Positions 670-2,790 of a DNA stretch of 64,000 bases are shown here, one piece after another. The DNA comes from Microcoleus sp. CAWBG506 (GTDB lineage Bacteria > Cyanobacteriota > Cyanobacteriia > Cyanobacteriales > Microcoleaceae). The stretch covers positions 35,599 to 99,598 of the forward strand of contig JAHREW010000001.1 of NCBI GenBank assembly GCA_020883125.1, written 5' to 3'. The translations under genes and the position numbers were made by a program. Each line of letters begins with the position of its first letter. Within the stretch, counting starts at the first letter, position 1. The notes beneath the pieces are model-generated. The model did not search any database, was not told the DNA's origin, and saw only the letters and a program-made list of their open reading frames with translations.

Positions 670-924
670 TAATGACATAGTTAGTGCCAACTTTTTTCAA
701 TCGCAGATAGTGTACTTGGTGAAACTGGAATAGGCTGTAGGTTTTAACTCAAGTAGGACTTAAGCAGAGGAAACGAAAAATCTAGGGTTGGGGCACAGGC
801 TGTGGCAGAGTTCCGTCCATGGGGTACGGGGGAAGCGCTGTTGCTGAACCCTACGCGCTATGCTGCGTAAGTCATAATAAATTTTTAAAATTTGTGCTAA
901 GTCTTGACTTGCAGACTTACCAGA

Positions 925-1383
925 AATTTGGGTCTAAAGCCCCGTCCTTTTAGGACGGCTTTAATTATCCAAATTTGTTGTTCATTCAGGTGTGGTAATC
1001 AATCCTAAAGTAGAGTAGAATCAGGTAATACTACAGGTAGCATAACCGCCGATACACATGAGACATCAAGCTCAAACGACAGGTCGGAAAATAATAATGG
1101 TTAGTGGGTGGCGAACACCACGAAAAACATAGAATCGGCATCTAACGAAGCCGCTTGCCAGAAAAGTAAAACTTTAAGTATTGAAATGTACCGTGGGGCA
1201 CACGGAAACAAAGGAGTAATCCAAAAAGCTTGGGGAGATTAACCCTCTGGGGTTGTCTAAGTTAGGCTCGAAGCACAGGTTCGATCGAACGGGCTTTTGG
1301 TTTAAGTAATGCCGAAAGGATAGGCAATTTTAAGGTATGTCTGTGAACCAAGAATCCCCGTCCGCGACGGTCGGGGAGTGTCA
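925..1383 (+). mobile_element. Structured non-coding element, possibly a non-autonomous IS200/IS605-type insertion or an omega-RNA-like remnant
   Basis: The stretch has no useful ORF but many local hairpins. At the left is AAAGCCCCGTCCTTTTAGGA followed by CGGCTTT, a bulged stem. Inside are GGTG-gcgaa-CACC, CCGTG-gggca-CACGG, AACCC-tct-GGGTT and the 12-bp palindrome GTTCGATCGAAC flanked by AAGC/GCTT. At the right is CCCCGtCCG-cga-CGGtCGGGG followed by AGTGTCAA. GC-rich subterminal hairpins at both ends and a structured interior resemble the ends and guide-RNA region of IS200/IS605 (TnpB) elements, which are common in cyanobacteria. No TnpB coding remnant could be read in any frame. Alternatives are a HEARO/IscB-type RNA or a long structured leader of the transporter gene downstream. 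Confidence 0.4.
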
Positions 1384-1395
1384 AAGAGTGAAAAT

Positions 1396-2790
1396 ATGCT
1401 AAGACCCAAGCAACAAACCAACGCACCTATGAACCTGTCACCGAAGTTAGGGGGCAAAAGTCCCACACCCAAAAACACCAACCCAAAAGAGCATTTCAAC
1501 GCCATAGGGTTACGGACGTTATTCGTGGTGGCCTCCATAGCCTCTGTCTGCGCCAGTTGTCAAAGCCCGCAAACACCCACCGCCACAAGTTCTGGTAGCA
1601 CTCCTGGCGGCACTCCCGCAGCTACTCCTGTCGCAGTTAGCAGTCCTGCTGACCCAAACACTGTCAAAATTGTCTCTATGCTGCCGATGACAGGTAGTGC
1701 CTTGGGTCAAGCTCAAACAATGGTCAATGGGATTAAACAAGCCTTGGCTGAAACCGATTCCAAAGCCTGCGATGGCAAAATCAAAATGGAATACGAAGTG
1801 CTCGATGACGCCACTGCTGCGGCTGGCAAATGGGACCCAAGCCAAGTTACGTCCAATGCCAATAAAGTAGCAGCCGATGGTTCGGTAGTTGCTGCGATCG
1901 GTCACTATAACTCAGGCGCTGCCAAACTTTCAATTCCCGTGCTCAACCAGGCTAATGTAGTGATGGTGAGTCCGGCAAACACCTATCCGGGCTTGACAAA
2001 ACCAGGAAAAGGTGAGCCGAAAGAACCTAATGTTTATTACCCCGCAGGTACTCGTAATTTTAGTCGGGTTGTCCCGGCTGATGACCTCCAAGGTGCTGTG
2101 GCGGCCAACTGGGCGAAATCTTTAGGAGTTAAAAAAGTCTATATTCTCGATGACCAAGAGCTCTACGGCAAAGGTATTGCTGACATTTTTGAAGCAACGG
2201 CTAAAACTTTGGGAATTGAGGTCCTCGGTCGTGAGGGAATTGATATCAAAGCGAGTGATTACAAAGCTTTAATGAATAAGATCAAGGCTTTAAATCCAGA
2301 AATGATTTACTTTGGTGGTACGACCCAAAGCAATGCCGGACAAATAATTAAAGACATGAGAAATGTCGGCATGACACCTGAAGCAGTCAAATTCATGGGA
2401 CCTGACGGCATTAAAGAGCAAGCTTTAATTGATGCTGGAGGTAAAGATGCTGAAGGTGTTTATGCTACTTTTGGTGGCTTACCTCCAAAAGAATTGACTG
2501 GTGAGGGCGCGAAGTGGTACGCCGGTTACAAGGCAAAATATAATGCTGAACCGGAAGCTTATGCAGCTTATGCTTATGAATCTGCTAAGGTAATTATCGG
2601 CGCGATTAATAAGGTTTGTAAAAATGACCGCGCAGCTATCCGCGATGCTGTTTTGGCAACTAAAGATTTTAATGGGGTACTTGGTAATTGGAGTTTTGAT
2701 GCTAATGGCGACACTAGCTTGACTACTATGTCAGGAAATGTTGTTAAAGGTGGGAAGTGGGAGTTTGTTAGCCCGCTTAAGACTCAATAA
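1396..2790 (+). CDS. livJ: Substrate-binding protein of a branched-chain/neutral amino acid ABC transporter
   Basis: Periplasmic binding protein of the HAAT type (LivJ/LivK; NatB in the Anabaena N-I system). It begins with about 30 polar residues, then a hydrophobic segment (IGLRTLFVVASIASVCASC) that looks like a signal peptide with a weak lipobox, then a Thr/Pro/Ser-rich linker. The mature fold starts at VKIVSMLPMTGSALGQAQ and includes IGHYNSGAAKLSIPVLNQA, the region binding the amino acid alpha groups in this family. The ORF track starts at GTG 1378, which lies in the terminal hairpin of the preceding element. ATG 1396 is preferred; ATG 1429 is also possible. First gene of the importer cluster. 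Substrate specificity cannot be told from sequence. Confidence 0.88.
   Translation: MLRPKQQTNAPMNLSPKLGGKSPTPKNTNPKEHFNAIGLRTLFVVASIASVCASCQSPQTPTATSSGSTPGGTPAATPVAVSSPADPNTVKIVSMLPMTGSALGQAQTMVNGIKQALAETDSKACDGKIKMEYEVLDDATAAAGKWDPSQVTSNANKVAADGSVVAAIGHYNSGAAKLSIPVLNQANVVMVSPANTYPGLTKPGKGEPKEPNVYYPAGTRNFSRVVPADDLQGAVAANWAKSLGVKKVYILDDQELYGKGIADIFEATAKTLGIEVLGREGIDIKASDYKALMNKIKALNPEMIYFGGTTQSNAGQIIKDMRNVGMTPEAVKFMGPDGIKEQALIDAGGKDAEGVYATFGGLPPKELTGEGAKWYAGYKAKYNAEPEAYAAYAYESAKVIIGAINKVCKNDRAAIRDAVLATKDFNGVLGNWSFDANGDTSLTTMSGNVVKGGKWEFVSPLKTQ

Follow-up and report, generated by a model that had tools for sequence, protein, structure and literature searches.

The window analysed here, a stretch of 64,000 nucleotides from the filamentous cyanobacterium Microcoleus sp. 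CAWBG506, carries near its beginning livJ, the gene for the substrate-binding lipoprotein of a branched-chain amino acid ABC transporter. The likely start of this gene is the ATG at 1429, because an upstream ATG homologous to that at 1396 lies out of frame in several orthologues. The genome of origin comprises 6.03 Mb in 81 contigs, and close records of this kind that bear a name are from Microcoleus, Tychonema and “Oscillatoriales”. Upstream of livJ lies a 464 bp insertion of the IS200/IS605 type with IS608-type ends (TTAC|...TCAA) and neither tnpA nor tnpB (Table 1). A first-pass annotation, made from the letters alone, had described the region as rich in hairpins and devoid of any ORF, with the GTG of the ORF track at the edge of the last hairpin, and it was right on each point. 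The longest stop-to-stop frame in 921-1384 has 51 codons, the + strand of 925-1400 reaches a folding energy of -133.4 kcal/mol against -119.9 +/- 5.8 in shuffled sequences (z -2.3; 0/100 as good), and the GTG at 1378 falls within the right end of the element. The folding of the - strand of the same segment was not exceptional compared with shuffles (z -1.4). The region proposed originally, 925-1383, is thus real, but its exact boundaries are 921-1384, and what had been seen as a fusion with the transporter operon is indeed adjacent to livJ, although rather inserted between the TTAC at 917-920 and the AGAGTG that now starts at 1385.

Table 1. Positions of the element, its RNA domains and the neighbouring features in the window.
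Feature	Position	Strand	Basis
Whole element, IS200/IS605-type without tnpB or tnpA	921..1384	+	Empty site in G011/G029; full-length copies elsewhere
TTGACT, part of the conserved livJ upstream block	904..909	+	Conserved in genus; promoter role inferred
TTAC left flank, IS608-type target and left cleavage site (C_L), presumed TnpB TAM	917..920	+	Sequence; flank shared by most copies; PMC5934647
AAAG left guide motif (G_L)	936..939	+	Identical to IS608 G_L
Left-end hairpin CCGTCC-tttta-GGACGG	942..958	+	In many tnpB elements of the genome and one tnpA+tnpB element
Presumed RNA promoter region	966..1029	+	Inferred from other copies: -10-like TATAAT/TACAAT; some with RHH gene
5′ RNA domain, ~155-157 nt, five covarying helices	1030..1186	+	Not in Rfam; never with tnpB; R2 model
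3′ RNA domain, omega-RNA (reRNA) scaffold, 197 nt, to right end	1188..1384	+	R1 homology to tnpB 3′ ends; covariation
Stem 1, CCGTG...CACGG, loop GGGCA	1191..1205 (1191-1195/1201-1205)	+	98.9% paired; compensatory changes in 4/5 pairs
GGCA, pseudoknot 5′ side, in stem 1 loop	1197..1200	+	Pairs with 1379-1382; ISDra2 topology
GAAT right guide motif (G_R)	1352..1355	+	Identical to IS608 G_R; in nearly all copies
Right-end hairpin CCCCGTCCG-cga-CGGTCGGGG	1356..1376	+	Sequence; right-end helix of the covariation structure
TGTC, pseudoknot 3′ side, positions -6 to -3	1379..1382	+	Covariation
TCAA right cleavage site (C_R), final bases of the element	1381..1384	+	IS608 C_R; TGTCAA ends all extracted genus copies
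Predicted guide segment (flanking DNA) AGAGTGAAAATATGCTAAGA	1385..1404	+	Equals empty-site sequence beside TTAC; PMC8612924
livJ, from its likely start ATG; substrate-binding lipoprotein of a branched-chain amino acid ABC transporter	1429..2790	+	Orthologue comparison

The insertion can be read directly from two close relatives, G011 and G029 (livJ protein identity 96% and 95%), which preserve an exact empty site. In both of them the sequence upstream of livJ is ...GACTTACAGACTTAC|AGAGTGAAAATATGCTAAGAC..., the same that is interrupted by 464 bp in the window, and the junction GACTTAC|AGAGTG is intact in loci L112 and L113. The element therefore lies 3′ of a tetranucleotide target, as our test demanded, and there is no target duplication. 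None of the 28 other livJ orthologues of the genus carries it upstream (0/28). The rival view, in which a leader RNA, as had been offered earlier, or a riboswitch would regulate the livJ operon in cis, can cite the position and orientation just upstream of livJ; it is contradicted by this absence and by the occurrence of the same RNA at unrelated loci, so that it retains practically no credibility. The sequence 921-1384 is a mobile element and not an evolved livJ leader; the orthologues refute only the latter, and an incidental effect of the insertion on livJ is not excluded.

The closest model for the ends of this mobile element is IS608, which is cut at TTAC on the left and TCAA on the right, carries 5′ of its end hairpins the guide motifs AAAG and GAAT, by which these cleavage sites are recognised, and inserts 3′ of TTAC (PMC5934647). 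The C_L, G_L, C_R and G_R motifs and the subterminal hairpins are all in place in the window, which fulfils the test for membership and reproduces the IS608 combination of TTAC/AAAG, TCAA/GAAT, subterminal hairpins and insertion 3′ of TTAC without target duplication (PMC5934647). Among copies with a TTAT flank, most (L152, L158, L032, L051) have AAAA in place of AAAG, the co-variation predicted by target recognition through base pairing. The difference from IS608 lies in the transposase. The element, which has no ORF, encodes no Y1 TnpA (test not met), and Y1 TnpA genes are present elsewhere in the genome, one of them in an element with 26/26 identical left-end bases; for these reasons we call it non-autonomous. 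Other non-autonomous elements with IS605-type ends are known in outline, such as the PATEs and IS200/IS605-derived MITEs of Haloquadratum and Halanaerobium. The present family shares both characteristics with PATEs and departs from them in having a long structured RNA conserved by covariation across genera, although PATE sequences were not compared.

This RNA has a core of ~355 nt with 67 predicted pairs, 30 of which show compensatory changes in an alignment of 24 copies (A1). For its 3′ domain, a second alignment of 37 divergent copies (A4, named structure) gives 94.3% of cells paired and double changes in 27/46 pairs, with 188 double-change cells versus 48.8 in shuffles and <=41 in slid structures. 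The 5′ domain has 40 such cells, versus 11.5 when shuffled and <=4 when slid. These counts come from related copies and do not represent independent events, and the slid controls retain that relatedness. The same data bear on whether the element is merely a passive MITE, with ends moved by TnpA in trans and an RNA that is just a decaying omega-RNA relic. Ends alone suffice for TnpA-mediated movement, and short, odd omega-RNA remnants occur in this genome; however, compensatory changes, in 188 cells among divergent genera and in 30 pairs inside the genus, indicate continuing selection on the RNA fold, which makes a passive relic quite improbable.

Searches of Rfam, at the gathering threshold and at E<=10, returned nothing meaningful for either domain of the RNA, HEARO and introns included. 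The comparison with Rfam that had been recommended at first reading thus gave no match, and the kinship with omega-RNAs emerges only with a purpose-built covariance model of the 3′ domain (R1), constructed exclusively from tnpB-less copies. In the same genome R1 matches tnpB genes at their 3′ end and right end, with matches that stop at the right-end TGTCAA. The E-values of the best tnpB-locus matches run from 1.9e-21 to 1e-6, which meets the homology test; they include L090 (1.9e-21, the best), L083 (1.8e-19), L080 (5e-14), L082 (6e-11) and L098 (7.5e-10). L082 and L098 are loci with an intact tnpB frame, and in this genome the highest scores fall on broken tnpB genes, whereas loci with intact TnpB score lower.

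The topology of the 3′ domain leads to the same family. The ISDra2 omega-RNA forms its pseudoknot between bases -5 to -3 and part of the stem 1 loop (PMC10097598). The corresponding GGCA x TGTC pseudoknot of our alignment is 99.3% paired; in four distant copies a double change has put G-C in place of its A-U pair, and the tnpB-bearing element L101 has its own version, GGCAT/ATGTC. With ISDra2-type omega-RNAs the window RNA shares stem 1, the guide-adjacent pseudoknot and, in its own genome, homology to tnpB 3′ ends (PMC8612924, PMC10097598), as well as a scaffold that ends exactly at the right end, a guide made of flanking DNA and a TAM that is the left-flank target site (PMC8612924). Judged by sequence, three tests (tnpB-3′-end homology, stem 1 plus pseudoknot topology, and covariation) identify the 3′ ~200 nt as an omega-RNA, and the whole passes as a TnpB-type guide RNA element in every such test except the presence of tnpB in cis. 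The initial impression of IS200/IS605 (TnpB) ends and RNA region without the protein is therefore supported by the end motifs, the empty site, the further copies and the homology to tnpB 3′ ends. An IscB/HEARO-type omega-RNA or an IStron (group I intron) element could be invoked for a large ornate RNA within an IS605-type element, yet it can be virtually dismissed: Rfam yields neither HEARO nor intron hits even with the threshold relaxed to E<=10, the right end and not the left is the guide side, as it is with TnpB, and the 3′ domain matches TnpB omega-RNAs.

From the known TnpB guide RNA elements the family departs in its missing proteins, its extra RNA domain and an occasional regulatory gene. 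There is no tnpB in cis, a conserved 5′ domain of ~155 nt replaces the tnpB coding region, and the RNA has a presumed promoter of its own and measures 355 nt in all; processed omega-RNAs have been reported at 79-466 nt (PMC10278001). In several copies a good -10 (TGGTATAAT, TATACT) closely precedes the RNA, and a consensus scan found no sigma-70 consensus site in the window copy. In about nine copies (L044 in this genus, and L194, L197, L198, L199, L206, L207, L209 and L210) a short divergent gene lies between the left end and the RNA promoter, on the - strand and upstream of the RNA, with a product of about 46-63 aa of the ribbon-helix-helix (RHH) type. Two of the four products tested resemble NikA in Pfam (E 1.7e-8 and 1.2e-6), with weaker matches to RHH_1/CopG. 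The gene start faces the RNA promoter, from which we infer that the RHH protein controls RNA production; this suggests a possible dedicated guide-RNA regulator. The window copy has no RHH gene.

Nothing equivalent to the 5′ domain exists in tnpB-linked omega-RNAs, and its role could be a different one. One may then ask whether the RNA has been kept for a different job altogether, as a decoy or regulator of TnpB or TnpA that, for example, inhibits cutting at its own site through an active 5′ domain and without any guiding. This large conserved domain, the divergent RHH gene of some copies, which suggests regulated RNA production, and the reported ability of part of the TnpB mRNA to inhibit cleavage (PMC10278001) all agree with such a role. 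A pure decoy, however, would not need the 3′ end, the pseudoknot and the TAM/RE geometry, which are kept in nearly all copies, and we consider it unlikely, though worth keeping in mind. A separate possibility, that the 5′ domain is a remnant of broken tnpB coding sequence, was rejected, as blastx gave only E>=0.046.

The element belongs to a large family of protein-less copies. In its own genome it has a relative at C34:138.7 kb, without this left end, and a more distant copy at C34:63.8 kb; related tnpB-less copies occur in many genomes of the genus, where full-length ones are found. The annotation that preceded this work would have been refuted by a lack of other copies and of covariation, and neither is lacking: related copies exist, and the covariation among mobile copies is strong. 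All 30 copies extracted from the genus terminate in TGTCAA and 22 have a recognisable TTAC/TTAT flank; their flanks all differ, except for one site common to two genomes. A covariance model of the 5′ domain (R2) detected the same RNA in 8/291 sampled genomes of the class and in 28/193 genomes of another family (by name Nostoc, Tolypothrix, Scytonema, Hassallia and Desmonostoc), and many of these loci keep left end, RNA and right end. The carriers include Nostoc-type cyanobacteria and members of other cyanobacterial families. When 75 loci were compared by tblastn with the TnpB proteins of this genome, including ~1.5 kb of flanks (less at contig ends), no tnpB was found inside any element (0/75). 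Nothing at all appeared in 71 of them, and in the other four a tnpB lies outside only, as a neighbour or as the gene hit by the insertion. A plasmid collection contained no match, and viral contigs gave one pattern match (L277) without a match to R1. Those matches of a 19-mer outside cyanobacteria that were compared with R1 (Citrobacter, Taibaiella, Chloroflexi and others) also lacked similarity to it and were set aside as most likely due to chance. A literature search that did not cover subscription papers turned up no account of omega-RNA elements lacking tnpB. Some stand-alone omega-RNAs were reportedly described by Altae-Tran et al. in 2021, so such elements may have been noticed before.

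Two observations on individual copies can be added. Loci L187, L188, L189 and L190 hold a copy at one common insertion site in four genomes of one Nostoc-type genus, which suggests an old insertion that has been vertically inherited. In L038 (C34:138.7 kb) and L143, the loop of the right-end hairpin contains a palindromic repeat of 25-27 nt, ACTTCGACTACGCTCAGTGCGTCGCTT.

The RNAs of TnpB systems end in ~16 nt that derive from flanking DNA, and the target site is at the same time the TAM (PMC8612924). In the window the 3′ end of the scaffold coincides with the right end and the guide would come from the flank, so the geometry test is met, although the transcript itself has not been seen. The predicted guide (AGAGTGAAAATATGCT...) matches the empty livJ site beside TTAC perfectly, in agreement with the early suggestion that an omega-RNA placed here would be guided by the livJ start region; the guiding as such is inferred. 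Its only perfect match in its own genome is its own flank, where TTAC no longer adjoins the guide match, and the inserted copy is therefore protected. TnpB candidates that share these ends and have open frames of 399-401 aa are encoded in the genome, among them one at C34:200.5-201.9 kb with RuvC motifs that are intact by eye, so that a partner would be available for action in trans, itself an inference. In a different copy, L158 (1720-2182), the element sits directly before a tnpB-like coding stretch, and its predicted guide would target that tnpB sequence.

The insertion, the end motifs, the tnpB-less family, the omega-RNA homology, the pseudoknot, the covariation and the match between guide and empty site are observations, and on them rests our main reading, to which we assign a probability of roughly 70%: a non-autonomous IS200/IS605 element brings along its own guide RNA, directed at the empty livJ site, for use by a TnpB whose gene lies elsewhere. 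Transcription, the binding and guiding of TnpB in trans, cleavage, the action of TnpA and the effect on livJ are inferred. Weighing against this reading are the missing sigma-70 consensus site of the window copy, the 5′ domain without equivalent, and the broken state of those tnpB genes in the genome whose omega-RNAs come closest. The element would have lost, or never had, tnpA and tnpB while keeping the omega-RNA gene, and the TnpA of another element would move it into TTAC sites by the single-strand “peel and paste” of IS608. Its RNA would start inside the element and read out across the right end, the last ~16-20 nt being flanking DNA that serves as guide. Bound in trans, the TnpB of another element would then cut sister chromosomes at their empty TTAC-livJ site. 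Cyanobacteria often hold several copies of the chromosome, and we propose that repair of such cuts would copy the element back, resulting in retention or, in a multi-copy genome, in drive. For plasmids it has been demonstrated that TnpB drives insertion sequences through multicopy replicons; there, as proposed here, the guide is recorded from the insertion site and element-free copies are removed, but tnpB acts in cis, whereas the window element needs a TnpB in trans (PMC11870625).

A wider hypothesis, which we advance tentatively and with slightly less than even confidence, is that of a cyanobacterial lineage of “RNA-only” OMEGA transposons, without transposase or nuclease and with a guide RNA of ~355 nt, a new 5′ domain and, in some, an RHH regulator. 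These would parasitise TnpA and TnpB in trans, directing the latter to their own empty sites, and in this form would have persisted and reached several cyanobacterial families. TnpB nucleases are the ancestors of Cas12, and their guide RNAs are normally carved from the tnpB message. If the hypothesis holds, a widespread, separate and independently conserved guide-RNA gene on a protein-less element would imply that a guide RNA can part from its nuclease in nature, an arrangement resembling later CRISPR systems, and “non-autonomous gene drives” would be directly testable. The 5′ ~155 nt constitute a new RNA domain absent from Rfam, and each copy with its empty site offers a natural guide/target pair for finding the partner TnpB.

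The insertion also splits the conserved upstream block of the livJ orthologues of the genus (TTGACT...AAATATGC). As the RNA points in the same direction as livJ, the element probably changes livJ transcription, an inference made without transcription data, and with the block separated and a co-directional RNA gene ahead, livJ may depend on read-through. Read-through from the element promoter would in that case replace the split block. TnpB processes its RNA at the 5′ side (PMC10278001), and 5′ processing by TnpB or by host RNases could sever the joint transcript inside the 44-nt leader without touching the livJ coding region. In L118 (G021), ~70-90 nt upstream of livJ, a sequence like an IS200/IS605-type right end (CCGGAGAGTGTCAA) ends close upstream of the conserved livJ block, and the region may thus be hit repeatedly.

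Other small elements were also found. Four short omega-RNA-like sequences of 129-147 nt, with right-end-like hairpins and no tnpB match nearby, are present in the same genome (G000) at C40:46815-46961 (L036), C29:33924-34067 (L166), C7:11726-11854 (L034) and C22:26538-26678 (L169), and may represent further stand-alone omega-RNAs or elements in decay. A second repeat family, with ends GTCCTGGACGC/GCGTCCAGGAC and cores ACCCGGTTT, occurs in the flanks of L112 and L101 and in the window at ~25312, 54823 and 38681 (- strand count), and is apparently another MITE of the genus.
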